From a virus: a stretch of DNA of 32,298 bases. The notes under the pieces were generated by a model that saw nothing but the letters and a program-made list of their open reading frames with translations, was not told the DNA's origin and did not search any database. Shown here one piece after another: positions 5,778 to 25,697 of this stretch (position 1 is the first letter of the stretch; each line of letters opens with the position of its first letter). Where the stretch lies: the IMG/VR virus record IMGVR_UViG_3300035183_000514, positions 1 to 32,298 of that record; one strand, 5' to 3'. The position numbers and the translations under genes are program-made.

Positions 5778-6063
5778 CAACCCTCACAATGATGACGAAG
5801 TTAAAGCGGTCTCGCCGTTTTTGCCAGCGCACCAACTCACGGTGAGTTGCGAGACCGTTCATTGGAAAATACTTACTTACCGTATGCCGCCACAACTCAG
5901 TAGTTCCACCATGTACCCTCACCAGCTCTTTCACCAAGTCGTTGTAGTAGACAAATTCGCCCGGCTCTCCAACCGCCGCTAACACCTTGGCAATTTGAGC
6001 AGGTCGAGTAACCGCCACCTCAACAACAGGCGGTTGCTCCGATAACTTGTGCACCACAAGCAA
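5764..6063 (-). CDS. Hypothetical protein, possible winged-helix fold
   Basis: Unrecognised 99-residue protein and the first gene of the dense leftward replication cluster. The start is a TTG at 6063 with GGAGGG seven bases upstream, a well-placed site that decides the start. Segment 19-88 (AQIAKVLAAV, then FVYYNDLVKELVRV, then THRELVRWQKRRDRFNFVII) has the helix-helix-helix-strand rhythm of a small winged-helix domain, so DNA binding is possible. This is an inference from pattern only. Confidence 0.72.
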   Translation of the reverse strand: MLVVHKLSEQPPVVEVAVTRPAQIAKVLAAVGEPGEFVYYNDLVKELVRVHGGTTELWRHTVSKYFPMNGLATHRELVRWQKRRDRFNFVIIVRVDEHE

Positions 6064-6116
6064 GCAGATTCCCTCCTCTGAAGCTTAAGCCAGCGCTAGC
6101 TAGACCGTTAGCTAGC

Positions 6117-6188
6117 GAAGATATACGCTAGATGTGTTCCGCCGCACGCATCGAGCGTGCGGCGAAACAGCCAGCACTAGCTATCTTC
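6117..6188 (-). promoter_or_regulatory. Nested inverted repeat in the leader of the replication operon
   Basis: An inner perfect 10-bp inverted repeat (6140-6149 and 6155-6164, loop ATCGA) is flanked by an outer 7-bp pair, GAAGATA (6117-6123) and TATCTTC (6182-6188). The leftward transcript would carry this structure about 55 bases before the first ribosome site. It has no U-run, so it is not an intrinsic terminator. The surrounding bases hold several CTAG words. A role in RNA stability or protein binding is inferred. Confidence 0.6.
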
Positions 6189-6213
6189 ATGCTAGTAATA
6201 ATAGGAAAATCGA

Positions 6214-6245
6214 GTGTTGTATGGTTGGACAACTCGATACAACAC
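6214..6245 (-). repeat. Inverted repeat, possible attenuator
   Basis: GTGTTGTAT (6214-6222) and ATACAACAC (6237-6245) form a perfect 9-bp inverted repeat with a 14-base loop. A second interlaced pair, CGAGT (6211-6215) and ACTCG (6232-6236), offers an alternative fold. In the leftward RNA the hairpin is followed by TCGATTTTCC, a weak U-run. It lies just after the stop of the 51-residue gene and before the replication genes, the place for an attenuator. Confidence 0.45.
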
Positions 6246-6265
6246 CATCCAACAAGGCATATTTC

Positions 6266-6421
6266 CTAACCTTTTCGGGTATCGCCGGTTTTGCTTTCGC
6301 TTTTCCGATTTTTGAGAAACGAACGCAACGAAACGGTGTCCCTGAGGTAGTCAAGCATCGCCTCACGAACAAAATTGGGGTTGACGATATGCCTTTTGCG
6401 GGGTATAGGTTTACTTTCCAC
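6266..6421 (-). CDS. Small basic hypothetical protein (GTG start)
   Basis: A 51-residue protein starting at GTG 6421, with AAAGGA nine bases upstream. The sequence is Lys/Arg-rich at both ends (ESKPIPRKRH, then KNRKSESKTGDTRKG) with a central helix (FVREAMLDYLRDTVSLRSFL). A small basic helical protein placed directly behind a candidate promoter and ahead of the replication operon could bind nucleic acid; no family is recognised. The longer open frame on the same strand (6187-6495) is low-complexity and lacks a ribosome site, so this shorter frame is preferred. Confidence 0.6.
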   Translation of the reverse strand: MESKPIPRKRHIVNPNFVREAMLDYLRDTVSLRSFLKNRKSESKTGDTRKG

Positions 6422-6505
6422 CGGAGTTTTCCTTTCTCAGGCCAGAGACTAGGGTTGATTATCGGTGGCCACGGGGCGGGTGCGGGAACACCCACCCCGA
6501 AACCG

Positions 6506-6582: not shown

Positions 6583-6921
6583 CTATTTGTGTTTCTCCAG
6601 CATGGTCGCCAGCGTTTGCGTTTTTTGCGATGACCCTCTGCTAGACCCAAAGTAGTAACTGATAATGGTGGTCCACCCTGTAGCTACGACACCCAACAGC
6701 GTAAACAACAAATTGCGGACACCCTCTTGGGTAGTGAACCTGTCGCCAACAAACAACAGCAACACGATGAGCAGAAAGAACGCGCCGGTTACCCCATACG
6801 CAAGATATCTGTTTGTGTCTTCGTTGTGCTGGACCTGGCGCGCGCGACAGGCAGGGTCATCAGTTGCAGACAAAATCTCCTGCTTTAGAGTATCAAACAT
6901 TTGTGGATCGATTGCGGGCAT
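6583..6921 (-). CDS. Two-helix membrane protein, probable holin
   Basis: A 112-residue protein with two membrane segments, about 39-58 (FFLLIVLLLFVG core) and 70-90 (LLFTLLGVVATGWTTIISYY). They are followed by YFGSSRGSSQK, a motif often seen after the last membrane helix in small phage membrane proteins, and a charged tail. Holins form membrane holes that release the endolysin. The gene directly follows the endolysin gene on the same strand (11-base gap) and has AGGAG before the ATG. Identification as a holin rests on topology and neighbourhood, not on a named family. Confidence 0.68.
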   Translation of the reverse strand: MPAIDPQMFDTLKQEILSATDDPACRARQVQHNEDTNRYLAYGVTGAFFLLIVLLLFVGDRFTTQEGVRNLLFTLLGVVATGWTTIISYYFGSSRGSSQKTQTLATMLEKHK

Positions 6922-6932: not shown

Positions 6933-7454
6933 CTATACGTAGTTAAGCAGCTCGACGGCGCGTGCAATCCATCCACGCAGAAACGCCAACTGACTTTGGT
7001 CTTTCACGACGATATCGGCAACCGCTTTCAGTCGGCGTCCCAATATCTTGCGCGCCAGCCGGTCTTGCGCCGACACATCGAGGGCGTCAAGCGCCTGGCG
7101 TGATGTTGGACCCAACACCCCATCCGCTACCACCCCTAGCTCTTCTTGCAGCCAGCGCACCGCCCGGCTAACGCCATGCAGCACGCCAGCATCGACCAGC
7201 ATTAGCCGAAGTTTGTCACTTTTTGTGTAGTTGAAGCCGGGGGCGCGTATATACCATTCCTGGTATATGGCGCGGGCTTCAGGGAGCGTCAGCGACTGGA
7301 CTTCCTCTGGCGTGGCGTCTCGTCCGAGATTTCGCCAGCGGCCCAGCGCAGACGTGGTAATGCCGAAATTGGTAGGACCACCACGGTCAGCGGGATGGTC
7401 AACGAACCCCCCTTCAAACGCCAATACAATGTCAACAATCTGTTTGTCCGTCAT
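6933..7454 (-). CDS. Endolysin, glycoside hydrolase 108 family (muramidase)
   Basis: Peptidoglycan-cleaving enzyme for host lysis, 173 residues, the usual size. The GH108 signature is clear: LAFEGGFVDHPADRGGPTNF (11-30) with catalytic Glu14 in the E-G-G-[FY] motif, followed by GIT. The C-terminal half fits the peptidoglycan-binding region that accompanies this family (LQEELGVVADGVLGP at about 103-117). There is no signal peptide, so release would need the adjacent membrane protein. The ATG at 7454 has AGGAGG close upstream. It lies in block B behind two members of the unknown family. Confidence 0.9.
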   Translation of the reverse strand: MTDKQIVDIVLAFEGGFVDHPADRGGPTNFGITTSALGRWRNLGRDATPEEVQSLTLPEARAIYQEWYIRAPGFNYTKSDKLRLMLVDAGVLHGVSRAVRWLQEELGVVADGVLGPTSRQALDALDVSAQDRLARKILGRRLKAVADIVVKDQSQLAFLRGWIARAVELLNYV

Positions 7455-7481: not shown

Positions 7482-7498
7482 TATTAGTTTAGCTAATA
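7482..7498. repeat. TATTAG/CTAATA palindrome at a gene end
   Basis: Six-base arms TATTAG (7482-7487) and CTAATA (7493-7498) around a five-base centre. It overlaps the stop codon of the gene ending at 7489. It closely resembles the palindrome at 6557-6573 after the holin gene, so the pair may be a recurring 3'-end element. Confidence 0.4.
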
Positions 7499-7905
7499 CT
7501 TCCGACAGCAGGCTTATTGTCTAGCGGATTCCACGCCACCGGCGCGCCAGCCGACAGCCAGTCTTCGACGAGCCTTTCCGAATCCACGATGTAATCACAT
7601 TCCGCGATAGTTTCACTCCCTGGTATCGGTCGCCACTCGATGAGTATGTACCGGTTCAACGACGCTGGCGGAACTACAACTTGCGCGTCAGTGGCGTCGG
7701 CCAAAGCGCCGCCTGCACGCCGCGCCTGAGCATCGTTCAGCGTACACGTCAGGTGAGACTGGCGGCTTGCCGGACAGAACTGAACGGCTTGGATGGTTGC
7801 ACCTAGCTGGACTCTGGCCGCGTCGAGTGCGCGCGGATCACGGTCCCGCCGGTCTACAACCACCCATGCCCCATCTTCTCCAACAAACGTTACTGAGAAT
7901 TTCAT
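7489..7905 (-). CDS. Member 1 of a four-copy protein family of unknown function
   Basis: 138-residue protein, paralogous to those at 7946-8392, 9599-10015 and 10723-11130. Shared blocks are an N-terminal strand (MKFSVTF), RALDAARVQLGATIQ, LNDAQARRA, VVVPPASLNRYI, EW, C-D-x-x-x-D and LVEDWLSAGAP-x-x-W-x-P. The predicted pattern is a mixed alpha/beta fold with a C-terminal helix ending in AGAP. No signal peptide, membrane segment or catalytic motif is evident. A GC hairpin (7918-7935) lies just before the ribosome site. This copy is in block B between another copy and the endolysin. Function unknown; an accessory host-takeover role is only a guess. Confidence 0.85.
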   Translation of the reverse strand: MKFSVTFVGEDGAWVVVDRRDRDPRALDAARVQLGATIQAVQFCPASRQSHLTCTLNDAQARRAGGALADATDAQVVVPPASLNRYILIEWRPIPGSETIAECDYIVDSERLVEDWLSAGAPVAWNPLDNKPAVGSIS

Positions 7906-7917
7906 AGCAACCCTTTG

Positions 7918-7935
7918 GCCCGCCTTTCGGCGGGC
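7918..7935 (-). promoter_or_regulatory. Hairpin immediately before a ribosome binding site
   Basis: Seven-base perfect stem, GCCCGCC/GGCGGGC, with GAAA (a GNRA tetraloop) in the leftward RNA. It sits between the stop of the gene at 7946 and the AAAGGG site of the gene starting at 7905. There is no U-run. One of several such hairpins in these operons. Confidence 0.65.
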
Positions 7936-7945
7936 GGGTTATAGG

Positions 7946-8392
7946 TTATTGGCTGTCGGTGCCGTCTTCTTCTGAAGAAGCCATAGGCTTATAGCCGGAC
8001 GGCGTCCATTCTGCCTGAGCACCAGCGGCAAGCCAGTCTTCCACCAACTGCGCGGCATCAATGTCGTAATCGCATGCCGCAAGGGTCTCGTTGTCTGGAA
8101 GGGGCCGCCAGTTAACCAGTACGTACCGATTTAAGGCAGCCCTAGGCACCACCACTTCCGCCTTGAAGGCGTACCCAAACGCGCCCGACGCGCTACACGC
8201 ACGCCTGGCCTGTTCTTCAGATACAGCGCAGCAAACTTCAAAGCGATAGCAGCCCAACGGCTCCGCTATGTGCGCAATTTGTGGTCCCAACTGGGCACGC
8301 GCCCCATCAAGGGCGCGCAATCCGGCTGGAGCATCCGCAATCTCAACCACGTAATCACAACAACTAGAGCCACGAAACATGACAGAAAACAT
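7946..8392 (-). CDS. Member 2 of a four-copy protein family of unknown function
   Basis: 148 residues, the longest copy because of a Ser/Glu/Asp-rich tail. Shared blocks: MFSVMF, AGLRALDGARAQLGPQI, SEEQARRAC, EVVVPRAALNRYVLVNWRPL, CDYDID and LVEDWLAAGA-x-x-EWTP. Cys residues at 11, 12, 48, 54 and 55 are not conserved across copies. GGAGG lies upstream of the ATG and a short hairpin (8408-8423) lies before that. Second gene of block B, transcribed from the promoter at 8929-8957. No function can be assigned. Confidence 0.85.
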   Translation of the reverse strand: MFSVMFRGSSCCDYVVEIADAPAGLRALDGARAQLGPQIAHIAEPLGCYRFEVCCAVSEEQARRACSASGAFGYAFKAEVVVPRAALNRYVLVNWRPLPDNETLAACDYDIDAAQLVEDWLAAGAQAEWTPSGYKPMASSEEDGTDSQ

Positions 8393-8407
8393 ACTTGGTT
8401 CCTCCGT

Positions 8408-8423
8408 GCCCGTATTTGCGGGC
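8408..8423 (-). promoter_or_regulatory. Short hairpin before a ribosome binding site
   Basis: GCCCG (8408-8412) pairs with CGGGC (8419-8423) around a six-base loop. It is followed in the leftward RNA by ACGGAGGAA and the ATG of the gene at 8392. It occupies the same place as the stronger hairpins at 7918, 10031 and 10671. Confidence 0.5.
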
Positions 8424-8432
8424 GGTTAAAGA

Positions 8433-8873
8433 TTAACAAGACTCTACTGCTGCCTTCAGTTCGGCGAGGGCATCGCCGAACTGGCCCGTATCATTGAGCC
8501 ACATAATTTTGGGCACCGCTTTTGCGACAGGCTTAAGGCCTTCAGTAGTAAAAACCCTGTCCAGGTCCATAAACGTTGGAAAACCATAAAGAGATGACGA
8601 TGAAAACAATGCGCGCATGAACGCGCCCATGACGCATACATGCTCTGCACATGCCTGACCCTGGGGACATACCTTGTCGTGCGACGGGCACGCCATAACT
8701 TGCCCATTCTCGACCGCCCATTGCACCGCTCCCAACGCATCTTTCAGTTCGCCTTTCGTAATCATGGTAAGCTCCTTTCTTTCCGCTGGATTGTTAGTTA
8801 CTAATGCGATTGCCTCTCTCACGCCATATCTGCCGTCAGACATGGCAGCTAAAATTTTTTCCGTTTGTGTCAT
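8433..8873 (-). CDS. Cys-rich hypothetical protein with a second internal start
   Basis: 146 residues from ATG 8873, which has AAAGGAG seven bases upstream. A longer frame to 8921 is ruled out because the promoter's likely start point is near 8922, leaving no ribosome site. The middle carries four spaced Cys (C-x6-C-x5-C-x4-C, in ACPSHDKVCPQGQACAEHVC), which could bind metal. In the same frame, ATG 8765 has its own AAGGAG seven bases upstream and would give a 110-residue form retaining the Cys region. First gene of block B. No family recognised. Confidence 0.75.
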   Translation of the reverse strand: MTQTEKILAAMSDGRYGVREAIALVTNNPAERKELTMITKGELKDALGAVQWAVENGQVMACPSHDKVCPQGQACAEHVCVMGAFMRALFSSSSLYGFPTFMDLDRVFTTEGLKPVAKAVPKIMWLNDTGQFGDALAELKAAVESC

Positions 8874-8921
8874 GCGTGCTCCTTTCGGCGGGCTGGTTTT
8901 GGGTTTCGGGTTACTCTTCAT

Positions 8922-8957
8922 AATGCCAATGATAACGCATCACTCACTGTGTGTCAA
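8922..8957 (-). promoter_or_regulatory. Strong sigma70-type promoter for block B
   Basis: Minus strand: TTGACA (8952-8957), 17-base spacer, TATCAT (8929-8934). The -35 and spacing are ideal and the -10 has five of six consensus bases. The start point would be near 8922, giving a leader of about 48 bases to the ATG at 8873. Confidence 0.8.
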
Positions 8958-8959
8958 GT

Positions 8960-9518
8960 CGCCAGCCCCCTCCGTCCCTGGCTTCTATCAGCTATGGGCC
9001 GTTTGCTTTCGGACGGCATCCGGTTAGCGTGACATGGTCACGCCGCCGCCAGCTTTTGCAAGCACCAGCTAGCGCCGCAAAAGCTAGTCAACATACTAAA
9101 CCTAAGCATTGATGTTGACGTAGTCAACCCAGCATGTAGCGCGGAGTGCCGCCGGAAGTGACGCGAAATGCCGCGCCGAATAGCTATTAAACGTCCCGAT
9201 TTCGTTTCTTTCGCTGGCGCTAGCATGTCATCCGCTAACCACTCGCCGGCGCAAGCAAGCAAGCACAACGCAGAAAAGGCTAGTCATCAGGGTAAAGAAA
9301 GACAAGCATGCCGCTAGAATGCTAGAACACTAGAAAGCTCTAGCGTGAGATGCGCTAGACGCGCCAGAATGCCAGGAAACCGCTAGGCAGCTAGACAGAC
9401 AGAAACCCAGGCAGAAACCGCGAAGAAAGACAGAGCAAGACAGAAAGAAAGAGAGAGAGAGAGAGAGAGAACGCTAGGGAGAAACCTAGGCAAACCTAGA
9501 CAACGGCAAACAAAAATG
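8960..9518. repeat. Non-coding CTAG-rich and purine-rich region
   Basis: No convincing gene in about 560 bases. About fourteen CTAG words occur, against roughly one per kilobase in the coding right arm by eye. From about 9380 the plus strand becomes purine-rich (AGACAGACAGAAA, GAAAGACAG) and ends in a (GA)10 run at 9451-9470. It lies between the terminator of block A and the promoter of block B, so it is not obviously transcribed from either. Function unknown. Confidence 0.6.
9451..9470. repeat. (GA)10 dinucleotide repeat
   Basis: Ten GA units within a longer purine run (AGAAAGAAA before, GAACG after). Slippage-prone and able to adopt unusual DNA structure; no link to a gene is visible. Confidence 0.9.
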
Positions 9519-9549
9519 AAAAAAGGCTCCTCCCCTTTTGGGGGAGGAG
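9519..9549 (-). terminator. Intrinsic terminator of block A
   Basis: A perfect 9-bp GC-rich stem, CTCCTCCCC (9527-9535) with GGGGAGGAG (9541-9549), loop five bases. In the leftward RNA it is followed after CC by a run of six U (9519-9524). It lies 50 bases past the stop of the gene at 9599. Orientation fits leftward transcription only. Confidence 0.85.
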
Positions 9550-9598
9550 AAAGGAAGGAATGTGGGGAAGGGAAATGGGGAAGGGATTTAAGGAAGGA

Positions 9599-10015
9599 CT
9601 AGGAGGAGGAAGATTCTGATGCCGTCTCTGGTGGCTCCCATTCAAGGGGAGCGCCAGAAGCAATCCAGTCATTTATGAGCCGTTCCGTGTCCACGTCACA
9701 GTCGATTCGTGCACACGTAGGCGTGCCAGGAGCGCGCACATAGCTACAGACAACGTAGCGGTTCAACGAATGGGCAGGCACCACGACAGTCACGTCCCAG
9801 CTATCGGCAAACCGAGAGCAAGCCATCCTGGCTTGCTCCTCATTGAGAGAGCACTTGGCAGTGAACTTAACAAAGCTTCTGTGCCGTTCGATCTTTACTA
9901 TGTCGGCTCCAAGCCGATTACGCGCCGCGTCTAGCGCGCGCAAGCCGGCGATTGGCTCAGCCATCCGCACAACACAACCATCATACTCTGAACAACGAAA
10001 CTCAACGCTAAACAT
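9599..10015 (-). CDS. Member 3 of a four-copy protein family of unknown function
   Basis: 138 residues, last gene of block A before the terminator. Shared blocks: MFSVEF, AGLRALDAARNRLGADI, LNEEQARMAC, VVVPAHSLNRYVV, C-D-V-D and LINDWIASGAPLEWEP. The tail is Ser-rich (SESSSS), encoded by a run of AGG/AGA-type complements at 9599-9615. A 7-bp hairpin (10031-10048) lies before its AGGAGGA ribosome site. Differences from the other copies in the central loop show that the copies are not recent. Function unknown. Confidence 0.85.
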   Translation of the reverse strand: MFSVEFRCSEYDGCVVRMAEPIAGLRALDAARNRLGADIVKIERHRSFVKFTAKCSLNEEQARMACSRFADSWDVTVVVPAHSLNRYVVCSYVRAPGTPTCARIDCDVDTERLINDWIASGAPLEWEPPETASESSSS

Positions 10016-10030
10016 AATTTATTCCTCCTG

Positions 10031-10048
10031 GCTCGCCGAAAGGCGAGC
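10031..10048 (-). promoter_or_regulatory. Hairpin immediately before a ribosome binding site
   Basis: Seven-base perfect stem GCTCGCC/GGCGAGC with a four-base loop, directly followed in the leftward RNA by CAGGAGGAAT. Same placement as the hairpins at 7918 and 10671, and no U-run. Confidence 0.65.
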
Positions 10049-10064
10049 GGTTAAATAGCTAATG

Positions 10065-10283
10065 TTAATTGACTTCGGCGATAACTTTTTCTAGCTGGCG
10101 CAATGCGCCATGCAGAGCTAGCGCAAAGCGAGCACTCACTAGCCCACGCCTATAGGCGCTAGCAGCTAGCTTTTGTGACTTTCTCAATGCCGCGTAGTCC
10201 ATCAACGCGGCAAACTCGTCGTGAGCACACTTGGCACACAAATTGCGAATTTCAACGCTTCCCTCGCCACAGTGTTTGCACAT
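10065..10283 (-). CDS. Small zinc-ribbon-like protein
   Basis: 72 residues from ATG 10283, chosen because AAGGAG lies six bases upstream; the frame to 10325 lacks a site. Two CxxC pairs at the N-terminus (CKHCGEG at 2-8 and CAKC at about 16-19) form a likely zinc ribbon. A helical basic part follows (LRKSQKLAASAYRRGLVSAR). Such small ribbons often bind nucleic acid or act as adaptors; the partner is unknown. It lies between members 3 and 4 of the paralogous family in block A. Confidence 0.75.
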   Translation of the reverse strand: MCKHCGEGSVEIRNLCAKCAHDEFAALMDYAALRKSQKLAASAYRRGLVSARFALALHGALRQLEKVIAEVN

Positions 10284-10334
10284 AGCTTTCTCCTTATGTG
10301 ACGGATAATGGTTTATGCGTCTCAAGCCAGCCAG

Positions 10335-10655
10335 TTATGCGAACCGTTCAAATACCAATTCGCAGAACGGCATGCCATTGTCCGTGTCTGCATACAACGT
10401 ATGGTCTGGTTCGCCAGACCACACAAGCCCACGCTCGCCAACGGCAATAGCTAGCTGCCGCTCTGACGGCACGTAATCGACAAACTCCCTGTCTGTGCCC
10501 ACGTTGTAAACGTGGGCTCGGCACTTTATGGTCACTTCGCCAACGACAAAACTGTCATTGACGAAATACCCCTCATCTTCGTTCCCCCACACATCGTATG
10601 TGCGGAGTGTGTAGACACGTGTCTTGGTTTTGGGATAGCGTGTTGTTGTTGCCAT
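10335..10655 (-). CDS. Conserved-looking phage hypothetical protein (YDVWGN motif)
   Basis: 106 residues from ATG 10655, with AAGGAG nine bases upstream. The segment YTLRTYDVWGNEDEGYFVND (15-34) resembles small proteins of unknown function that I recall from many phages and mobile elements; this is memory, not a search. Beta-rich throughout, with no Cys pair or membrane segment. A 10-bp hairpin (10671-10694) precedes its ribosome site. Function unknown. Confidence 0.75.
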   Translation of the reverse strand: MATTTRYPKTKTRVYTLRTYDVWGNEDEGYFVNDSFVVGEVTIKCRAHVYNVGTDREFVDYVPSERQLAIAVGERGLVWSGEPDHTLYADTDNGMPFCELVFERFA

Positions 10656-10670
10656 GGTCAGTTTCTCCTT

Positions 10671-10694
10671 GCTCCCTGCCAAACGGCAGGGAGC
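10671..10694 (-). promoter_or_regulatory. Strong hairpin immediately before a ribosome binding site
   Basis: A perfect 10-bp stem, GCTCCCTGCC with GGCAGGGAGC, loop of four. It is directly followed in the leftward RNA by AAGGAG. The strongest of the set; no U-run follows, so read-through to the gene at 10655 is expected. Confidence 0.7.
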
Positions 10695-10722
10695 CGGCTA
10701 CTAGGGTTTCGGTTATTGTCTA

Positions 10723-11130
10723 TCACTTAGTGGCTGCTGCTGGTGACCATTCTAGCGGAGCACCAGCAGTAATCCATGCTTCCACAATATCGGCGCAACG
10801 GATACGCGGAGTACACTCCGCTCTGGTTTCGCTTCCTGGCTGGAGCCGCCATTCAGCAGTCACGAACTGGGTCAATGCTTCAGGCGGTACTGTGACTGCC
10901 GCCTGGCGAGCTTCGCCAAAGACTCCGCTCTTGACGAATGCGCGCCTTGCCTGGGCTTCAGACACGTCACAACAAATCTCGAACCTGCAGAAATGCGAGG
11001 ACGGACGCATGATAGAGTCTACTTGTGGACCTAGAATCGCTCTGGCGTTATCGAGTGCTCGAAGACCATCGGGATGGGCGAAGTCGATAACATAAGCAAC
11101 GGAATTGCTACGGAAAGTGACTATGAACAT
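10723..11130 (-). CDS. Member 4 of a four-copy protein family of unknown function
   Basis: 135 residues and the most divergent copy. Shared blocks: MFIVTF, DGLRALDNARAILGPQV, VSEAQARRAF, AVTVPPEALTQFV, EWRLQPGSET and IVEAWITAGAPLEWSP. The usual LNRY reads LTQF and the C-D-x-D stretch is changed. It has AGGAGG before the ATG at 11130 but, unlike the other copies, no hairpin there. Second gene of block A. Function unknown. Confidence 0.83.
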   Translation of the reverse strand: MFIVTFRSNSVAYVIDFAHPDGLRALDNARAILGPQVDSIMRPSSHFCRFEICCDVSEAQARRAFVKSGVFGEARQAAVTVPPEALTQFVTAEWRLQPGSETRAECTPRIRCADIVEAWITAGAPLEWSPAAATK

Positions 11131-11351: not shown

Positions 11352-11519
11352 GGTCATTCCTCCTGCGAGTTTTATTTGCTTGACTTGTTTATCGTCGCTA
11401 CTTGCGGAAACTTTAATTTCCGTCTCACAAGTTTTCAAGTAGCGCCTGCCGCATTATGCTGCAATGTGCATGCCAGCGGAAACTGGTTGACACACTTTGC
11501 GAGAAACAACAAAACAAAC

Positions 11520-11960
11520 AGCTAGTTAGATTCTAGCGCGTCAACAGGTTTAGCAGGGTGAGTGACAAAATTGTGACAAAACTGCCGTAAATTTTTTGAC
11601 ATTCCGGCGAAAAAGTGACACTTGCTGGCGCTAGCTGGCGCGTTGCTGACTGGCGTGAAAAAAAAAATATATCGCGCGACAAATACCGCCAGCTCTGGCG
11701 CTAGCTATCGCTGGCGAATGTGATGCTAGCCAGAGATCGCGGCTTGCCGGCATGACGCAAGGTTTTAGTCACGCTAGCGCCAGCTAGAAACAGCTAGTCA
11801 ACGTCAACCAGTTATCACGCTAGCGATATCACTAGCTGTGACTGGCATGTCTGATAAGAAACAGTATGTCAAACGCCAACGCCATAGCTAGTGGCTAACT
11901 AGCGATGGCTACACAACATATTGTGGTGGCTAGTTCTAGCTTATCGGCGTAGTCACTGGC
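11520..11960. repeat. CTAG/GCTAGC-rich stretch
   Basis: About fourteen CTAG words in roughly 440 bases, many extended to GCTAGC, GCTAGT or CTAGCT. They are irregularly spaced, unlike a simple tandem array. No coding frame. Confidence 0.7.
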
Positions 11961-11978
11961 TGTGATGGACCAGGCCCC

Positions 11979-12010
11979 CCGGGGACCCGACCCCGGCCCG
12001 CCGATTTTTT
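11979..12010 (+). terminator. Weak terminator-like hairpin with T-run
   Basis: CCGGGG (11979-11984) pairs with CCCCGG (11991-11996), loop six, followed eight bases later by T6 (12005-12010). The gap between stem and T-run is too long for a standard intrinsic terminator, and no rightward gene precedes it. It could end a small RNA. Confidence 0.22.
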
Positions 12011-12289
12011 GGATAACGTGCCAAAAGACAGCTCCAAAAAATTTTCAAATGAGTGTCAAACCACGCCAGACCCAGCCACGCCCGGGCACAAGCTAGAATC
12101 AAAGTCGCGCTGGAGATATCACTAGCTAACCATAGATCACCGCTAGAGCGACGCGATTCTAGCTTGCTTTCCCACCCGCCGCACCCTTCTGGTGTCAACG
12201 GGGCTTGCCGGGTGTCACCTCGTGACACCGGCCAGTAATTCAATTCAATACACAAACCAAGCCGGCGCCAACTCAGCGAAAAACCAGCA

Positions 12290-12620
12290 GAAATTCAGAC
12301 ACACCAACGCCAGCCAACAATCCCTTCGGCCCAGCCAGCCAACCGCCAGCGCAAACCAAGCAGACTCTACAGGCCCTTTGGGAGGGCCTGACCGTCGTGC
12401 CGCCAGCCAAGCCGATAAGCCAAACCGCTAGACCAAGCCGGCCGGACAAACGGCCCGCTAGACAGGCTAGACAGCCCGGCAGGCCAGCCAAACCGATACG
12501 CCAGGCCAGCCAGACAAACGAACAGACAAAAGAACAGACAAACGGCACGGCCAACAGCCAGCCATCGCTGACCAGCCAGCGCCGGCTAAACGGGCCAACT
12601 CACTCCCGCCAGCGTGCTTG
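12290..12620. repeat. Low-complexity A/C-rich stretch
   Basis: Dominated by degenerate repeats of GCCAGCC, CAAACCG, GACAAACG and AGACA on the plus strand. Frames on both strands translate to monotonous Pro/Gln/Arg or Gly/Leu/Ala strings, so it is not read as coding. A 7-bp hairpin, AGGCCCT...AGGGCCT, occurs at about 12370-12390. Confidence 0.5.
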
Positions 12621-12691
12621 CCGCGCCATCGAAAAAAACAAACGCTGTTTTAGATCCCTCGATGCAGGTTAGCCGGTTCCTAAAAAACTAC

Positions 12692-12723
12692 TTGACACGA
12701 AATGAAAATTCTCTCGATATAAC
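12692..12723 (+). promoter_or_regulatory. Candidate rightward promoter
   Basis: TTGACA (12692-12697), 18 bases, GATATA (12716-12721), inside an AT-rich segment unlike its surroundings. It would feed the rightward structural operon about 500 bases downstream. Confidence 0.4.
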
Positions 12724-12850
12724 AGGTAGTTGGAATTTCTCGTTTGTCAAAATTCTAACCCTGCGCAATAACAAGGGAATCTCATTTACCTTGTATGAAG
12801 TAGACAAGTATTGAAAAACTGGCTAACTCTTTGAAAACACTGGATTATTT

Positions 12851-12888
12851 GCACACCGCATTTTTCGCAAAAATGCGTGTGCTATAAT
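12851..12888 (+). promoter_or_regulatory. Inverted repeat with extended -10 promoter
   Basis: An almost perfect 14-bp inverted repeat (about 12851-12882, one bulged C) ends directly at an extended -10, TGCTATAAT (12880-12888). The repeat covers the place of the -35, which is poor, so an activator or repressor bound there could control the rightward genes. The leader to the ATG at 13218 would be about 320 bases. Confidence 0.5.
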
Positions 12889-13075
12889 AGCTATAGATAG
12901 CTAGTAATAGCTAGCGCTAGCTAGTTAATCACTAGCTAGTCATTATTGATTTGTTCTAGCTCACTTGATGTTCGCTAGAACATCAAAGCTAACGTTAGCT
13001 ATCTCTAGCTAGTGATAGCTAGTATTAAGCTAGCGTTAGCTATTACTAGCTAGCGATAGCTATTACGCGCGCGCT
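12889..13075. repeat. Dense TAGC/CTAG array
   Basis: About fourteen CTAG words in 187 bases, mostly within TAGCTA, CTAGCTAG or GCTAGCG. It includes the 14-base palindrome AGCTAACGTTAGCT (about 12988-13001) and a hairpin TTGATGTTC-GCTA-GAACATCAA (12965-12986). It lies in the leader between the promoter candidate and the terminase genes. Confidence 0.75.
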
Positions 13076-13092
13076 AAAATAAAAAATAAAAT

Positions 13093-13128
13093 ATATCCCT
13101 GTTTGTTTAGTTATATCACTGTTTGGTT
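13093..13128. repeat. Two direct repeats spaced 20 bp, operator-like
   Basis: ATATCcCTGTTTGtTT (13093-13108) and ATATCaCTGTTTGgTT (13113-13128) match at 14 of 16 positions. They are exactly 20 bp apart, about two helical turns, a spacing suited to side-by-side protein binding. They lie 90 bases before the small terminase gene. Confidence 0.5.
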
Positions 13129-13217
13129 GTGTACACACCTGCATGGGGAGGGTAGACCCTGCTTTGGTGTGACTTCGTGACTTCGTGTTTGTGAGCATTT
13201 TGTGAGAAAGGGGCGTC

Positions 13218-13926: not shown

Positions 13927-15576
13927 GTGAGGGACTACTCGTTTGTATTCGACACTGAGGACGTTGAGCTGCGCCGCGAACTCATGCGGGAACTGGGCCG
14001 GACAGACCTGTTCTTCTTCTGCAAGTACATCCTCAACATGCGGGACCTGGAAGAACGCACCGACATCCACCACAAATTGTGCTACCACTTCGACGAGCTG
14101 AGCACGCGCGGCCACGAGGGCCGGATGTGTGTCATGATGTTCCGGAACAGTTTCAAAACCTCGCTAGGGATAGGCTGGTTAATCCAGCAGCTCACCGTCA
14201 ACCCGAACTACCAGATCGGCATTGGGTCGGACATCGAGAAGCGGGCGCAAGAACGGCTGTTGGACATGCGGAATATCATCGAGCACAACGAGCTGCTCAA
14301 AACGCTCTACCCGGAAGTCTTTTTTGAAGACCCGCATGCGGAGTCTGATCTCTGGACGAACTCCGCGTTTAACGTGAAGCGGGGGAAAGCCGGAGAAGTA
14401 ACCGGCGGATTCCGCAAGCCCAGCGTAAGCTGCTTTGGCCTTGACCCGCTGCCTACCGGGTCACACTACGACGTAGTGCTTATCGACGACATCGAAAACG
14501 AGTCCAATTGCGCTGACGAGGACCAAATCGCGAAGCTCACCCGGAACTTCAAAGCGTTTCTACCCACGCTCAACCCAGGGTGCATCTTGGCGCTGCTCGG
14601 AACGGTCTATTGCGAGAACGGACCGAACACGTTCTATCAGTCCAAATGGTTCACGTACAAGCGTCCGTGCTACGACAAATACGGCGAGCCAACGTTCCCG
14701 TCGCGGTGGGACCGCGATGCCCTGGAAAAAATGAAGCGGGACATGGACGATGACTATTTGTGGCAAGGCCAGTACCTGCTCAAGCCCGCGCGGCGGACGG
14801 ACTTATTTTTCTACCCGTTTACTGACGTGCGGCTGAATCGCTGCCGGTTGCTCAACACGCACGCCAACCCGGTCATCGTGGCTGGACAAGGGAAGGTTGT
14901 AGAACTGCGTGATTGTTTTATCTACATCCTGGTAGACCCCGCTGGCGGCATGTCGGAAGAACAGCACCAGGCTCAGCCCAAAGTCCGGGCCGACACGTGC
15001 GGGTTTGCTGTCCTGGCCGTAGATAAATCAAACACCTGGTACGTGTTGCGGTTGTGGCGACAATTCTTAAGTGACGAGCAGCTTGTGGACAGACTCTTTG
15101 CGCTGGACGCGGAATATCATCCGTATTTGTTCGGCATCGAAAAGATGCCGCACTTAGACAGCTTCTTGCGGAGCCAATTCCAGCTACGCGGCAAGTCTCT
15201 CCATATTTCGGAACTCAAGCCCCGGAAGCGGTCGAAAGCGGACCGTATCCGGGCGCTCAAGCCGCTGTTGCCGTCGATGTATTTTGATGAGTCCCACGCG
15301 CTGCAGTCTGAAACGGATTTCCATAACTGGCACACCGAGCAGGACCACGAAGACGACCACCTCGATGCGCTGGCCTACGCCATTGACGTATGCCGTCCCC
15401 CGCAGCCGGACCAGTTGCACGCCTGGCAGAAACACCGCGAACAATCCGACGACCGGGAACGGCTCAACCAATTACCGCCGAATGAGCGCAAAGAATGGGA
15501 GTTTATCGAGCGGACCTATTTTCGTGATCCGGCAGAACTCCGGATGGAAACCGAACTACAGGATTTTTTTGCATGA
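13927..15576 (+). CDS. Terminase large subunit (packaging ATPase-nuclease)
   Basis: DNA-packaging motor, 549 residues. ATPase domain: the Walker A-like loop FRNSFKTS (72-79) is degenerate with Lys77, Walker B VVLIDDIE (183-190), coupling motif LGT (224-226). RNase H-like nuclease domain: ILVDPAGG (334-341, Asp337), GIEKM (403-407, Glu405) and DDHLDALAYA (476-485, Asp480). All expected acidic residues are present, so it should be active. The start is GTG at 13927, with GAGG about ten bases upstream. The stop overlaps the next ATG by four bases. Confidence 0.92.
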   Translation: MRDYSFVFDTEDVELRRELMRELGRTDLFFFCKYILNMRDLEERTDIHHKLCYHFDELSTRGHEGRMCVMMFRNSFKTSLGIGWLIQQLTVNPNYQIGIGSDIEKRAQERLLDMRNIIEHNELLKTLYPEVFFEDPHAESDLWTNSAFNVKRGKAGEVTGGFRKPSVSCFGLDPLPTGSHYDVVLIDDIENESNCADEDQIAKLTRNFKAFLPTLNPGCILALLGTVYCENGPNTFYQSKWFTYKRPCYDKYGEPTFPSRWDRDALEKMKRDMDDDYLWQGQYLLKPARRTDLFFYPFTDVRLNRCRLLNTHANPVIVAGQGKVVELRDCFIYILVDPAGGMSEEQHQAQPKVRADTCGFAVLAVDKSNTWYVLRLWRQFLSDEQLVDRLFALDAEYHPYLFGIEKMPHLDSFLRSQFQLRGKSLHISELKPRKRSKADRIRALKPLLPSMYFDESHALQSETDFHNWHTEQDHEDDHLDALAYAIDVCRPPQPDQLHAWQKHREQSDDRERLNQLPPNERKEWEFIERTYFRDPAELRMETELQDFFA

Positions 15577-16007
15577 GACACTGGCTAGTCAAATATGTAT
15601 TAAAGGCGATTTCGGACCTGGTCTCGCATGTCACGGCTGAGCGTGAGGCGCTGATAGCCGCCTATCGTGAAGACCTGAAGCCCATTAAGGAAGCCAACGT
15701 GAAACTCCTGGCGCATGTGTTGGCGCTCAAGGCGGAAATCAAAGACCAGCATGACCGGCATGAAAAAGCGCTGAAAGAAAAGGACCAGCAATATCATGCC
15801 TTGTTGAGGCAATTTCTGGCTGTGGCGTTGCAAAAAGAATCGCGGTCAGCCCCATCGACGCCGGTTCATCAAGCGACGCAGGAGCTTATTAGCTTTGGCG
15901 TGTTTGATGATCTGCCGCCAGGCGATCCACGCGGGTATACCCGCGAAGAACTTTTGATAGGAGGATACCAAGAGCCGACCCATGATCGATCCCAAACTGA
16001 GGAATAA
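15573..16007 (+). CDS. Coiled-coil hypothetical protein between terminase and portal
   Basis: 144 residues. Residues about 20-90 form a long charged helix with heptad spacing (KEANVKLLAHVLALKAEIKD), followed by a low-complexity Pro/Ser region and an acidic tail. It overlaps the terminase stop (ATGA) and the portal start (26 bases). No family recognised; its placement suggests a packaging or portal-associated role. Confidence 0.75.
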   Translation: MRHWLVKYVLKAISDLVSHVTAEREALIAAYREDLKPIKEANVKLLAHVLALKAEIKDQHDRHEKALKEKDQQYHALLRQFLAVALQKESRSAPSTPVHQATQELISFGVFDDLPPGDPRGYTREELLIGGYQEPTHDRSQTEE

Positions 16008-18087
16008 GCAGTCCAAGGTCTACGATCATTGCGAAACAAAACTGAAACAATATGCCCGGCTCAAGATGCACTTAGACCGATTATGGTTTACCTCCATCTT
16101 GTTCTACAAAGGCGAGCAGTGGATCACATTCGACACATCGTTAGGCCAGTTCCGCAGAACCAACCAGCGGCGCGTTATTCCCCGGCCGGTGACGAACCGG
16201 TTTGCCGCCGCCGCTAATAGCCAGATTTCCGCACTGAGTAGGTTTGATCCGAAAATACTCTTTGCCCCGCAATCGGACAGCTACGAAGATCTCACCATGG
16301 CGAAGGCTGCCGTGGACATCATTAAGGTGATCGACGGCGAGATCAACCGTGAGAATCTCAAGGCGGAGATGTTGCCGTGGTATGTTATTACCGGGAATGT
16401 CTTTGAGATTTGGGGCCATGATGCGTCAGGCGGCGGCATGAAGACGGTGGTGGAAACCCGGTGCTCACAGTGTGGGCTGGAAGACACGCGCGAGGAAAAT
16501 GAGGAGCCGGGGATTTGTCAGCAGTGCGCGGAAGCCGAGGGCCTACAAAGCTTCATGCTGGACGTAGTGGGGCCAGACGGTCAGCCAGTGACCCGCGAAG
16601 AACCAGCGGGCAAGCTGGGTGTCGAAATTGGCAACCCGTTTCAGATGTTTTTTGATTATCGTATTCCCCACATTCAGGACCAACAAACAATCATCCGGAT
16701 TCACACCAAGGATACGGAGTATTTACGGCAGAAGTATCCCAGGCTCAAGGACAGTATCCAGCCGTTCAAACGAAGCGAGTTGAATTCCAGGATGCTGCAA
16801 AGCTTGAGCGGGTATTTTTATACCGCCAGCGAGGGTGTGAACGAAGAAACTACCGATCTGGTGGAGGTGTGGCACAAGCCCTGCCTGGATTTTCCGCGTG
16901 GCTATTACGCCGTATATACGTGTGAACAGACGTTCCTGGAATTGCGGGAACTGCCGTATCGCACGAAGCGGGGCGAATATTTTTACCCCATCGTCCATTA
17001 CAAGTACGACCGGATGCCGGGGTCAGCCCTGGGCCGCACGCCGATGTTTGACCTCATCGAGAAGCAAAAAACGCGGAACCGCGTTGAGGCAATCGGCGAG
17101 ATGATTCTCATGCGGACCAGCAATCCGGTGTGGGTGGTGCCGACGCCTGGCACGACGACGGAAATTACTGGCCATGTTGGGCAGGAAATTAAGTACGACC
17201 CCAACCAGACCAACGGGGCAGCCCCCATGCGGGTTGAGGCTGCGCAAATGCCGCCGGCTATTGTGGAATGGCTGAACCGCATTGACCAGGATTTTATTTA
17301 TATCCTGGGGGCAAGCGAGATTACGCTAGGCCAGCGACCGTTGAGCGTTAAGTCCGGCTTCGCGTTGCAGAAAGTGCAGGAAATCAGCAATGACCGGCAG
17401 ACCGCAGTATTTACGAATTATAGCATTGCGGTAGCTGAGTCCCAGCAGATTGCGCTGGAGGTATTCCGGCTGATTAGTCCGACCGAGCGGTACGCGCGCA
17501 TCTTTGGTGACAACAAAGAGTGGACGGTCAAGAAAATCAAAGCTACTGACCTTCAGGGTGCAGTAGACGTGGTGTGTCAGCCGGGAGCCTGGACGCCAAA
17601 GAGCCACATCGAGCGGCTAGCTACGCTGGAGTTTTTTATCCAGAACGGGCTTATCGACATACAAGACCCGGTGCAAAAACTTCGGATTCATCGTGAGTAT
17701 GGCATGCCGGGGCTGCTTGCCAGCATGGACGCCGATGACGCGCAGATCGCCCGGGAGCATGACCGCTGGAAGAACGGTGGTCCGCTTGAAATCTCACCGT
17801 TTGAAAACTCACAAATGCACCTTATGCGGCATTTGGAAAAATGGAAGTCAGAAGAGTTTGAGTCGGTTCCGCCCGAACGCAAGGAAGTGTTCCTCAGACA
17901 TATTCTGGCGACACAATACGTGGTGGAAACCGGCAAAATGCCTCCACCTGGGATGTTCGACCAGCAACCGCAAGGCGGTGCTGGTTTGGGGCGGCCCGGA
18001 CCCCTAGCACCGGCGGGAAGTGGCATGGGTCCAGGGCTGCCAATTGCAGAAGGAGAATCGTATGGGACTAATGGATACGCTGGCTAA
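15982..18087 (+). CDS. Portal protein, podovirus type
   Basis: 701 residues, in the size range of large podovirus portals. The portal forms the dodecameric DNA gateway at one capsid vertex. Supporting features: position after the terminase, RRVIPRPVTNRFAAAANSQI (54-73), LPWYVITGNVFEIWGHD (about 132-148), GRTPMFDLIEKQKTRNRVEA (350-369) and a helical stretch LSVKSGFALQKVQEISNDRQ (453-472) typical of portal wing-stem regions. An insert with C161-x2-C164 and C179-x2-C182 looks like a zinc knuckle and is unusual. The C-terminus is Gly/Pro-rich. The ATG at 15982 has its nearest AGGAGG 17 bases away, so coupling to the previous gene is likely. Confidence 0.88.
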   Translation: MIDPKLRNKQSKVYDHCETKLKQYARLKMHLDRLWFTSILFYKGEQWITFDTSLGQFRRTNQRRVIPRPVTNRFAAAANSQISALSRFDPKILFAPQSDSYEDLTMAKAAVDIIKVIDGEINRENLKAEMLPWYVITGNVFEIWGHDASGGGMKTVVETRCSQCGLEDTREENEEPGICQQCAEAEGLQSFMLDVVGPDGQPVTREEPAGKLGVEIGNPFQMFFDYRIPHIQDQQTIIRIHTKDTEYLRQKYPRLKDSIQPFKRSELNSRMLQSLSGYFYTASEGVNEETTDLVEVWHKPCLDFPRGYYAVYTCEQTFLELRELPYRTKRGEYFYPIVHYKYDRMPGSALGRTPMFDLIEKQKTRNRVEAIGEMILMRTSNPVWVVPTPGTTTEITGHVGQEIKYDPNQTNGAAPMRVEAAQMPPAIVEWLNRIDQDFIYILGASEITLGQRPLSVKSGFALQKVQEISNDRQTAVFTNYSIAVAESQQIALEVFRLISPTERYARIFGDNKEWTVKKIKATDLQGAVDVVCQPGAWTPKSHIERLATLEFFIQNGLIDIQDPVQKLRIHREYGMPGLLASMDADDAQIAREHDRWKNGGPLEISPFENSQMHLMRHLEKWKSEEFESVPPERKEVFLRHILATQYVVETGKMPPPGMFDQQPQGGAGLGRPGPLAPAGSGMGPGLPIAEGESYGTNGYAG

Positions 18088-18313
18088 ACTGAAAGCACAG
18101 CAAGAGCTGATGAATAGCGCGGACAAAGCAACGAAGGAAAAAGAAGCCAAGGATGCTCTCGAGCGCTTGAAGAAAAAGCGAGAAGAAGATTTAAATGACG
18201 GCGGATTTATGTCGTTTCTGTTTGGCGGCAATATAGCTAAAGGCCTGAAGAAACGTGCATCAATCGACGAAGAAGACAAGAAAAAAGACGACGAAGAAGA
18301 CGACGAAGAATAA
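18062..18313 (+). CDS. Small highly charged protein after the portal
   Basis: 83 residues from ATG 18062, which has AGGAG six bases upstream; the open frame further upstream lies inside the portal gene. Lys/Glu-rich helix (KATKEKEAKDALERLKKKRE) with one short hydrophobic patch (GGFMSFLFGG) and a very acidic tail (EEDKKKDDEEDDEE). The composition is like small virion-assembly proteins. It overlaps the portal end by 26 bases. No family recognised. Confidence 0.72.
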   Translation: MGLMDTLAKLKAQQELMNSADKATKEKEAKDALERLKKKREEDLNDGGFMSFLFGGNIAKGLKKRASIDEEDKKKDDEEDDEE

Positions 18314-18399
18314 CCACCACAGCGCCCGCGCTTCAGCAACGTGGGCGTATTTATCAATCCAGTCGAGCCGTTGCTCGTTAAAATCGTAAAGGAGTAAGT
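18314..18399 (+). other. Intergenic gap with two small hairpins
   Basis: An 8-bp imperfect stem (CGCCCGCG...CGTGGGCG, about 18325-18350, one G-T pair) and a 5-bp stem CGAGC-CGTT-GCTCG (18364-18377) followed by TTAAAAT. Neither has a proper U-run. They precede the AAAGGAG site of the scaffold gene. Confidence 0.4.
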
Positions 18400-19329
18400 A
18401 TGACGCTGTTTAGTTTGTCACCCGGCCATCTACAGAGTTTTGGTAGCCCTAGTTATAAACTAGCTCCCAACACAGACGGCGGGGGAACAGGCACTGCTGG
18501 TGAGTCGGAAATGTCTGACGCCGACGAGCCTGAAACGAACGAGGATGATGGCGAGGAAGAGGCGGCGGAAGGGTCAGATGAGGGAAAATCAAAGCAGTCG
18601 AAGTACGTACCCTACAAGCGGTTTCAAAAACGTCACCAGCTTGCGAAGGAGTACGAAAGTCTTGGACTAAGCCCAGAGGACATGCGGAATGTCCTGCGGA
18701 ACTACCAGGAGCTGCTCAACGAAATCAACAAGGCGCAATTGCAGAAGGATGAAGGGACCGCTACCCCGAAAAAAGCGCGTATTTCCGCTGAGAAGCGCCA
18801 GCAGTTGATTGAGGACTTGGAAGAGCTAATTCCGGGAATTAGCAAGATTGGCGTTATCGCCAGCAAATTGCAAGCACTGGATGGTGACGTACAAGACACC
18901 AAAGTAGCTGGGTATGCCCGCACGCTACAGCGTGCCGCCGATCGCATTCCCGAGCTGTTAGCCGACGCGCATTTCGACATCGGCGACAAGCGGTTTGTCA
19001 AAGAAGTGGAACGGCAGGTTGCTAGTATTGTAGGGACTGATAAGTCGCTTATGCAACGCTTACAGCGCGGTGACTTGTCTGTGGTGGACGAGGTCTTTGA
19101 GTCTGTCAATAAAAATTTTCTCTCAAAATACTTGAGCCACATGCGGCGTAAGCCAAAAATTGATCTGCCTAGCCTGCTGAAAGAGGCAGAAGGGAAAAGC
19201 TCCGGTCGGCGCCGCGAAGGTGGGGACGCTGACGAATCCCCCCGTGAGAAGAAAATGCGGCTCAAGCGGCAGGAAGACCGGGAGTTTTACGAACTCTACA
19301 AAGAACTTGAAGAGGCGAACAAAAGCTAA
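18400..19329 (+). CDS. Putative capsid scaffolding protein
   Basis: 309 residues, directly before the major capsid gene, where scaffolds lie. The N-terminus is disordered and very acidic (NEDDGEEEAAEGSDEG, about 47-62), and the middle and C-terminus are helical with coiled-coil character. A basic patch near the end (KIDLPSLLKEAEGKSSGRRR, then EKKMRLKRQEDREFY) suits binding to the inner capsid. AAAGGAG precedes the ATG. The stop shares a base with the capsid start (TAATG). Assigned by composition and position. Confidence 0.75.
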   Translation: MTLFSLSPGHLQSFGSPSYKLAPNTDGGGTGTAGESEMSDADEPETNEDDGEEEAAEGSDEGKSKQSKYVPYKRFQKRHQLAKEYESLGLSPEDMRNVLRNYQELLNEINKAQLQKDEGTATPKKARISAEKRQQLIEDLEELIPGISKIGVIASKLQALDGDVQDTKVAGYARTLQRAADRIPELLADAHFDIGDKRFVKEVERQVASIVGTDKSLMQRLQRGDLSVVDEVFESVNKNFLSKYLSHMRRKPKIDLPSLLKEAEGKSSGRRREGGDADESPREKKMRLKRQEDREFYELYKELEEANKS

Positions 19330-20633
19330 TGGCAACGTTTGATTCTGCTGCGTATTCCGCGGCGCTAAAAATTAAGTACGGAAAGAAACTGGTTTCACAG
19401 GTCAACGACAAGACCACGCTGTTGAAGTTATTCAACGACGACAGCGAAAGCTGGATGGGCCGGTACGTGATGAATCCTATCCTGCTTGGTCGTGGTCAGT
19501 CCTTCATGGCTCACGGATCGTTGGGTTTGCTGCCTACGCCAGCCAACGAAACGACCGTAGAGCAACAGATTCCGGTGAAGTGGGTTCGGGGCCGCATTCA
19601 ATTTGAGGTGGCCTTGATGTTCCAGAGCACCAGCAATGTTGGCGCGTTTGCGAAAGCCAGCGACCTGCTCATGAAGCGGTTGGTGATCAACTTGTCCGAC
19701 GAGCTGAATCGCATGCTGTCCGCAGGGACTGGCACTGGCGTATTGGCGATGGTGGATGACACGTCTTCTGTGGGCACTGCCGCCGACCCGCTGGAAGTAG
19801 ACGCCCCTGGGGGTATTGCCAGTGATGGCTACGGCAGCCGGTATCTCCAACCTGGCATGCTGATTGCTTTTACCGACGGTAATATCATTCGCAGCATTCG
19901 CCAGATTGTGTCGATTGCGTCTGAAACCGCCACCGTGTCCGGTCTTGTGCTGGACACCCCCGTGACCGCTGGCACGCATTATGCGGACAACGATTTCATC
20001 GTGCGTGTGGCTAACCCACAGGTGACGAACCTCGCCCGCGATACCTCGTACAACAACGAGCCGATGGGTCTTGAGGGGATTGTGGATGACGGTACGCTCG
20101 TCACCGTGTTCCATAACATTTCGCGGTCGACGTATCCTGACTGGCAAGCGACCCGCTTGAGCGTGTCCGCGTTGTCGCTCGATGCGCTCCAGCGTTTAAT
20201 GGACACGATTGACCAGCAATCCGGCGAAAGCCCGACTGACCATATCGTGCACCATTCGATTCGCCGTGCATACTACGCGCTGGCCGACCAAAGCCGCACG
20301 TTCATGCAGACCGGCAAAGGCCCGGCGAGTTTCGATATCGGCCAAGAGCCACGGGGCGTTGAGGTTGCGTACAACGGCGTTCCTATCACCGTGGATAAGG
20401 ACGTTCAGCTGGGCGAATGGTTGTCCGTCAACCGCGACCACCTCACCCGCTACGTTCTGCGTGAGGGTGAGTGGGCGGAAGAGACTGGCAGTATGTTCCG
20501 CGCCGTCTCTGGCCAGGATGCGCTGGAAGCCATCTACCGTGTGGGCGTGAACTACTCTACCGACATGTGCAATGCGCACGGCAAGCTCGTTGGCATGAGC
20601 ATTACCAACGCCATCCAGCGGCACGTTGTGTAG
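19329..20633 (+). CDS. Major capsid protein
   Basis: 434 residues, directly after the scaffold-like gene, with the mixed alpha/beta composition expected of an HK97-fold capsid. Supporting parts: a helical N-terminal arm (AAYSAALKIKYGKKLVSQVN), a long spine-like helix (KASDLLMKRLVINLSDELNRM, about 109-129), SRYLQPGMLIAFTDG and the late beta segment EVAYNGVPITVDKDV. There is no strong ribosome site, so coupling to the scaffold through TAATG is likely, although GAGG lies 13 bases upstream. A GC hairpin follows the stop. Identity by position and composition is good; the exact capsid family is not established. Confidence 0.85.
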   Translation: MATFDSAAYSAALKIKYGKKLVSQVNDKTTLLKLFNDDSESWMGRYVMNPILLGRGQSFMAHGSLGLLPTPANETTVEQQIPVKWVRGRIQFEVALMFQSTSNVGAFAKASDLLMKRLVINLSDELNRMLSAGTGTGVLAMVDDTSSVGTAADPLEVDAPGGIASDGYGSRYLQPGMLIAFTDGNIIRSIRQIVSIASETATVSGLVLDTPVTAGTHYADNDFIVRVANPQVTNLARDTSYNNEPMGLEGIVDDGTLVTVFHNISRSTYPDWQATRLSVSALSLDALQRLMDTIDQQSGESPTDHIVHHSIRRAYYALADQSRTFMQTGKGPASFDIGQEPRGVEVAYNGVPITVDKDVQLGEWLSVNRDHLTRYVLREGEWAEETGSMFRAVSGQDALEAIYRVGVNYSTDMCNAHGKLVGMSITNAIQRHVV

Positions 20634-20657
20634 TTTACATTCACTTATACTGAAAGT

Positions 20658-20675
20658 CGGGGGCTTAGTCCCCCG
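20658..20675 (+). promoter_or_regulatory. GC hairpin after the capsid gene, before a ribosome binding site
   Basis: CGGGGG (20658-20663) pairs with CCCCCG (20670-20675), loop CTTAGT. It is followed by CCAAGGAG of the next gene and has no U-run. The arrangement is the same as in the leftward blocks; it may protect capsid mRNA or set relative expression. Confidence 0.65.
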
Positions 20676-20692
20676 CCAAGGAGTATTGATAC

Positions 20693-21067
20693 ATGCCTTT
20701 TTCTCCAGCTCAAAACGAGCGTCTCTTTCTTCTTACATCGGTTAGTCTGGATGCAGGAGCGGCTGACCGTGAGTTTACCTTCCGCGTGCCTTTCGGTTGC
20801 ACCGTGGTTGCGTTGGAAGCGGCAGCGGATGCAGCCGACGCTACAAACAAAGTTACGCCGTCTTTGCGGCGGGGCACGACTGACATTGTGCTGGCGTCTG
20901 CGGTTACATCGGCGGACACCGTGGTCCGCAAGACCACGCCCGAGGCTAACCAGAGCTTAAACCTGGATGGCGGCGAGACCATGAAAATTGCCTTGGTCTT
21001 TGGTGGAACGCCGGCCAACGTCAAGGGCATCAATGTTGTGGTCTGGGCCACGCCTCGCGTGTACTAA
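20693..21067 (+). CDS. Small beta-rich virion protein, first of a tandem pair
   Basis: 124 residues, clearly related to the next gene. Shared parts: D-x-GA-x-x-REF-x-F-x-x-PF (20-35), a D-A-A-x-A-T-x-K-x-TPS segment and the near-identical ending GTPANVKGINV-x-x-W-x-x-P. A beta-sandwich with no Cys is likely. Position after the major capsid gene suggests a head decoration or stabilising protein; this is inference. AAGGAG precedes the ATG. Confidence 0.75.
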   Translation: MPFSPAQNERLFLLTSVSLDAGAADREFTFRVPFGCTVVALEAAADAADATNKVTPSLRRGTTDIVLASAVTSADTVVRKTTPEANQSLNLDGGETMKIALVFGGTPANVKGINVVVWATPRVY

Positions 21068-21082
21068 ACTGAAAGGAAGACC

Positions 21083-21510: not shown

Positions 21511-21525
21511 CTAGGAGTTAAAACC

Positions 21526-21939: not shown

Positions 21940-21947
21940 GTAAACAT

Positions 21948-22836: not shown

Positions 22837-22864
22837 CAGGACTGGGTAGCAGTAGGGAGGAGCA

Positions 22865-25633: not shown

Positions 25634-25697
25634 CGAACCCACCAACATTTACTTCACAATTCGGTTAGCAAAAATTATGTATTAGGGTGCTATCCCC

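Follow-up and report, generated by a model that had tools for sequence, protein, structure and literature searches.

Four paralogous genes of an apparently lineage-specific protein family in a podovirus-like phage

Genes and expression signals at the locus

The window analyzed here, by which we mean the whole stretch of DNA, is the entire virus record IMGVR_UViG_3300035183_000514 (32,298 bases). Its minus strand carries four related open reading frames (ORFs), all with ATG starts, and the positions given for them in a preliminary description of this DNA hold: copy A at 7489–7905 (138 aa, pI 4.75), copy B at 7946–8392 (148 aa, pI 4.40), copy C at 9599–10015 (138 aa, pI 5.20) and copy D at 10723–11130 (135 aa, pI 6.10). 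The ribosome binding site (RBS) is of the GGAGG type in B, C and D, and a weaker AAAGGG in A. Read leftward, the order is 11163g, copy D, 10335g, 10065g, copy C, a terminator-like hairpin, about 0.6 kb of non-coding DNA, a promoter-like site, 8433g, copy B, copy A, the endolysin gene and a holin-like gene. The two small ORFs between D and C (10335–10682 and 10065–10325, minus strand) are unrelated to the family, as is 8433g (8433–8921, minus strand), the first gene of the downstream group, whose likely start is the ATG at 8873 or 8765. Copy A is the last family member before the endolysin, which lies directly downstream (6933–7454, minus strand) and has GH108 and peptidoglycan-binding domains. 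The small membrane protein that follows (6583–6921, minus strand; phrog_9990) is holin-like, a role suggested by its position and a sub-threshold match to Phage_holin_2.

Copy C closes the upstream gene group, the end of which is marked by the terminator-like hairpin at 9527–9552 (minus strand). The downstream group is preceded by a sigma-70-like promoter, TTGACA-17-TATCAT (8957–8929, minus strand), a consensus match with 11 of the 12 consensus bases. This promoter is suggestive only, because the scan as a whole was no richer than the shuffles (6 vs. 5.7) and only the near-perfect site carries weight. The layout fits two transcription units, the second of them also containing the lysis genes. 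The earlier proposal of two operons is thus backed by the layout and the hairpin after C, with the promoter-like site as a suggestive addition. We also noted a strongly C/T-rich non-coding run on the minus strand at 9400–9600, with a TCTCTC repeat just past copy C.

The leaders of three copies contain a GC hairpin on the minus strand: GCCCGCC-GAAA-GGCGGGC for A (7918–7935), GCCCG-CAAATA-CGGGC for B (8408–8423) and GCTCGCC-TTTC-GGCGAGC for C (10031–10048). Each is located between the end of the preceding gene and the RBS, with the stem stopping 12–15 bases from the ATG; the hairpin is absent from the leader of D. Aligned by eye, the three leaders have TAACC, the hairpin and a purine-rich site in common, and, going from C to B, both sides of the stem show a T-A to C-G change. 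GC hairpins also occur in the leaders of 10335g (gene start at 10655) and of late gene 20693. In total, 5 of 39 gene starts have a leader GC hairpin with its stem end 12–17 bases from the start codon, compared with 0.41 expected (binomial p = 5e-5, in a post hoc test chosen once the first hairpins had been noticed). The hairpins common to these leaders suggest co-ordinated expression.

The phage and its relatives

The plus strand from 13.2 kb encodes the terminase large subunit, portal, major capsid protein and a protein matching internal virion proteins. The minus strand encodes, besides the holin-like protein and endolysin, a uracil-DNA glycosylase (UDG)-like protein, a DnaB-like helicase and a Toprim primase. 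The phage is podovirus-like and distant from cultured phages. The nearest relative by capsid is the 44.6-kb IMG/VR contig 3300038435_000021 (hereafter G001), with a major capsid protein 54% identical, followed by MW202554.1 (“Podoviridae sp. ctLwi270”), a complete, circular genome with 35% capsid identity. Judging from the sizes of these relatives, the 32-kb record probably represents only part of a ~45-kb genome. No related capsid gene was found in the prokaryote genomes searched, and the endolysin gives no more than a broad indication of phages that infect Gram-negative bacteria. The G001 terminase large subunit (contig positions 39786–41470) is split across two overlapping frames, which may reflect a frameshift, a sequencing error or a programmed event.

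Paralogy and selection

Pairwise amino acid identity among the four copies is 36–50%, with D 50% identical to B. Smith-Waterman scores between copies were 175–301, compared with shuffle means of ~30 (z = 32–54), and alignment of the four over their whole length revealed 30 invariant columns. When the window was scanned with a four-copy profile, exactly A, B, C and D were recovered and the rest was at noise; profile searches likewise added no fifth member, either from the window or from related phages. On these alignments, A–D are true paralogues.

Between pairs of copies, identity at codon position 3 is 25–39%, compared with 50–64% at positions 1 and 2. The dN values are 0.51–0.83 and dS is at or near saturation. 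As position 3 is far more diverged than positions 1 and 2, we infer that each of the four encodes a functional protein kept by purifying selection and that the duplications are old. In an unrooted tree of the four sequences, B, which has the shortest branch, pairs with D from the other gene group and not with its neighbor A. This grouping across gene groups argues, weakly for a tree of four sequences, that the copies are not simply the product of a recent tandem series.

We considered two further repeat structures and rejected both. For an internal repeat within the protein, hhalign of segments gave no signal beyond the stretch common to both windows by design. For a duplicated two-gene cassette, consisting of a small helical protein and a family member, the preceding genes 11163g, 8433g and 10065g did not resemble one another significantly (lowest uncorrected p = 0.03 in ~20 tests).

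Search for homologues

The preliminary description had recognized no known family, and the database searches agree: profile searches of Pfam, PHROGs, NCBIfam and PADLOC gave no above-threshold match, only sub-threshold ones such as that to Pfam Mg_chelatase (12.8 bits, cut-off 20.3). No significant match was detected by profile among PDB sequences (best E = 0.77). With A, B and a consensus as tblastn queries on 50,697 phage records, and E values as high as 10 accepted, one non-significant match (E = 5) appeared. Viral contigs were scanned for conserved peptide patterns three times, each time with a different stretch, and prokaryote genome contigs once; no relative was detected, where such scans detect only relatives that retain the chosen peptides. 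One match on plasmid NZ_CP035508.1 (29% identity over 120 aa, E = 4e-3) was rejected as a chance match, because it runs antisense to an annotated helix-turn-helix gene beside repA/repB, in the RepC position.

No family member turned up when 31 related-phage records were searched by profile, nor when the search was repeated on the unfiltered ORFs of 17 of them. Many of these records are fragments, and the absence is firmest for MW202554.1 and the 44.6-kb G001. Given that the pattern scans need the chosen peptides and that many records are fragmentary, the case for absence is strong where close relatives are concerned but weak for those further away. G001 has the capsid, portal, primase, helicase and UDG in common with the window but no family copy. 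As the closest relative has these core genes and lacks the copies, the family appears to be accessory in its distribution. With homologous copies in one genome and none in near relatives, we regard it as a lineage-specific paralogue family that arose by old duplications within the phage's own lineage. No description of the family was found and it appears to be new, although a small orphan family expanded in a single phage lineage is an already known kind of thing.

Conserved residues and predicted structure

The preliminary description listed an ordered set of motifs common to the four copies. The motifs are present, but their wording was somewhat idealized. The opening motif in copy A is M-K-F-S-V-T-F, only QAR is invariant in the motif given as EQAR, copy D has the variants VTVPPEALTQFV and AWITAGAPLEWSP, and the ending motif varies to AGAPVAW in copy A and AGAQAEW in copy B. 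Polar residues among the 30 invariant columns are R25, D28, R31, C54, Q60, R62 and T99, and none of the 30 is His, Glu, Lys or Ser. The invariant columns thus contain no apparent enzyme-like residue set.

With the alignment of the four copies as input, AlphaFold2 predicted copy A as a compact alpha/beta protein (mean pLDDT 79, pTM 0.69) with the order beta-alpha-beta-beta-alpha-beta-alpha-beta-beta-alpha. The first six elements follow that of a ferredoxin-like domain, in a reading of the order alone. The copy B model is poorer (pLDDT 64), with nearly the same element order and one short strand missing. A single fold for the family is thus predicted, from one model of moderate confidence. Loops that diverge around conserved motifs, as proposed earlier, were not borne out: by the secondary structure of the copy A model, helices average a pair identity of 0.53, strands 0.38 and loops 0.44, and structured and loop positions do not differ (p = 0.37).

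A Foldseek search of the copy A model (pLDDT 79) against the PDB gave no significant match (best E = 0.84, probability 0.06). In BFVD, the same model matched A0A7G9A3S4 (Foldseek probability 1.00, E = 2.5e-3, aligned over 140 columns), in what is a weak fold match with a TM-score of 0.40–0.44, rmsd of 8.8 and 11% identity. A0A7G9A3S4 is an uncharacterized protein of “Bacteriophage sp.,” similar in length (153 aa) to the family members, and no mention of it was found in the literature. It was not recovered with the poor copy B model. This protein may be a distant relative of the family.

Duplicated genes in this phage and others

Paralogues are absent from most dsDNA phage genomes (PMC5694885, citing Kristensen et al. 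2011), so four diverged copies are indeed unusual for a phage, as the preliminary description remarked. They are less exceptional in this genome, because two further two-copy families are present. One consists of tandem paralogues after the major capsid gene (20693–21067 and 21083–21436; 45% amino acid identity), possibly head decoration proteins, of which G001 has one homologue (39–41% identical). The other, at the end of the record (31270–31782 and 31822–32295), has 56% amino acid identity, with aligned DNA stretches 73–86% identical and an identical 24-base leader, TATTCCAGTGAGAATTAAACTATG, and appears to be a recent duplication. Duplication would thus be a habit of this phage and not a privilege of the four-copy family.

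Families A–C of the giant Salmonella phage SPN3US and the pfam12699 proteins of phiKZ likewise have several diverged copies per genome, mostly of unknown function (PMC5694885). However, those are head or tail proteins in ~240-kb genomes, whereas the four copies described here belong to the lysis/replication strand of a 32-kb record and have no Pfam match. Nearer at hand, in the same broad phage group, small paralogues of ~150 aa occur as four Endonuclease_7-type copies in one related phage (G003) and as a LAGLIDADG-like pair in another (G002). A G003 copy matches Endonuclease_7 at E = 1.3e-22 and the LAGLIDADG_1 match is weak, whereas copies A–D matched neither of these domains, nor HNH, in Pfam. 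The G003 copies are also scattered in both orientations, unlike the two same-strand groups of the four-copy family.

Possible functions

It is common biology for small acidic accessory phage genes to form sets whose products bind host factors. We tentatively read A–D as such a lineage-specific set of non-enzymatic binding proteins with diversified partners, because they are small, acidic, accessory, partly co-transcribed with lysis genes and without an enzyme motif or an invariant His, Glu, Lys or Ser. Each copy would be a soluble alpha/beta protein of one fold, and the four would be expressed together from the two leftward gene groups, the second also with the lysis genes. Each would bind its partner non-enzymatically, probably a host protein in host take-over or counter-defense, and the copies would have been retained since they would bind different partners or partner variants. 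Loops that evolve no faster than the structured parts count against a fixed scaffold with binding loops that have diversified. On general grounds, one fold with different targets is nevertheless plausible, because duplicates retained for long usually differ in function.

The anti-defense or regulatory role proposed at the outset gained no direct evidence. No copy had a match in PADLOC, which comprises mainly defense proteins and covers known counter-defense families in part only. Among the neighbors, PHROGs and Pfam scans identified no defense or counter-defense gene but lysis genes and ORFs without assigned function. We regard as improbable the stronger version in which an undescribed family with a fold absent from solved structures supplies four inhibitors, each against a different host defense or host protein. 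If the copies were inhibitors with different targets, they could serve as a ready-made panel in the search for host defense proteins; at present they are one more orphan protein family among many.

The four proteins might instead make up a single hetero-oligomer, or be a regulator internal to the phage, and differ by their place in a complex and not by host target. Their genes share one transcribed region, and hairpins recur in the leaders of three. In a special form, they would bind the CTAG-rich non-coding stretches that sit before the leftward gene groups. All four are acidic (pI 4.4–6.1), however, no DNA-binding family was recognized in Pfam, PHROGs or NCBIfam, and G001, which has a palindrome-rich stretch of a comparable kind built on another motif, lacks any family copy. 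We consider this unlikely. Small enzymes or ligand-binding proteins with diversified substrates are a rather doubtful possibility. All four copies retain R25, D28, R31, Q60 and R62 despite 36–50% identity, and this Arg/Asp/Arg and Gln/Arg set on two helices could form a ligand or catalytic site, but the residues may be internal salt bridges and the PDB search gave no solved-enzyme fold match (best E = 0.84, probability 0.06).

It is very unlikely that A–D are virion or late structural accessory proteins akin to the head proteins that giant phages have in multi-copy families. Paralogous virion families do reach 20 members in SPN3US (PMC5694885), but the genes studied here are on the strand opposite the structural genes, on the lysis/replication side of the genome. 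Nor does it seem at all probable that they are duplicates without a special role, retained by a duplication-tolerant genome. The pairs 20693/21083 and 31270/31822 speak for this reading, but saturated synonymous change with a conserved protein indicates long selection on every copy. Given how uncommon paralogues are in phage genomes, four copies under prolonged purifying selection suggest that the phage needs something in several versions.

Iterated palindromes in non-coding DNA

CTAG palindromes are packed at ~20 per kb in the non-coding stretches before the leftward groups (11440–13210 and 8920–9600), compared with 1.45 per kb in the 17.3-kb late region (13927–31226), and a smaller cluster of seven occurs in 6000–6500. 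Within 11440–13210, TAGCTA occurs 14 times and GCTAGC nine times (0.4 expected for each). Candidate roles for these stretches are an origin, regulator binding or packaging. A comparable 1.3-kb non-coding stretch in G001 (contig positions 43300–44607) has a different degenerate palindrome, CACCATGGTG-like, with seven CCATGG compared with 0.3 expected. Iterated palindromes are thus found in both related phages, with differing sequences.
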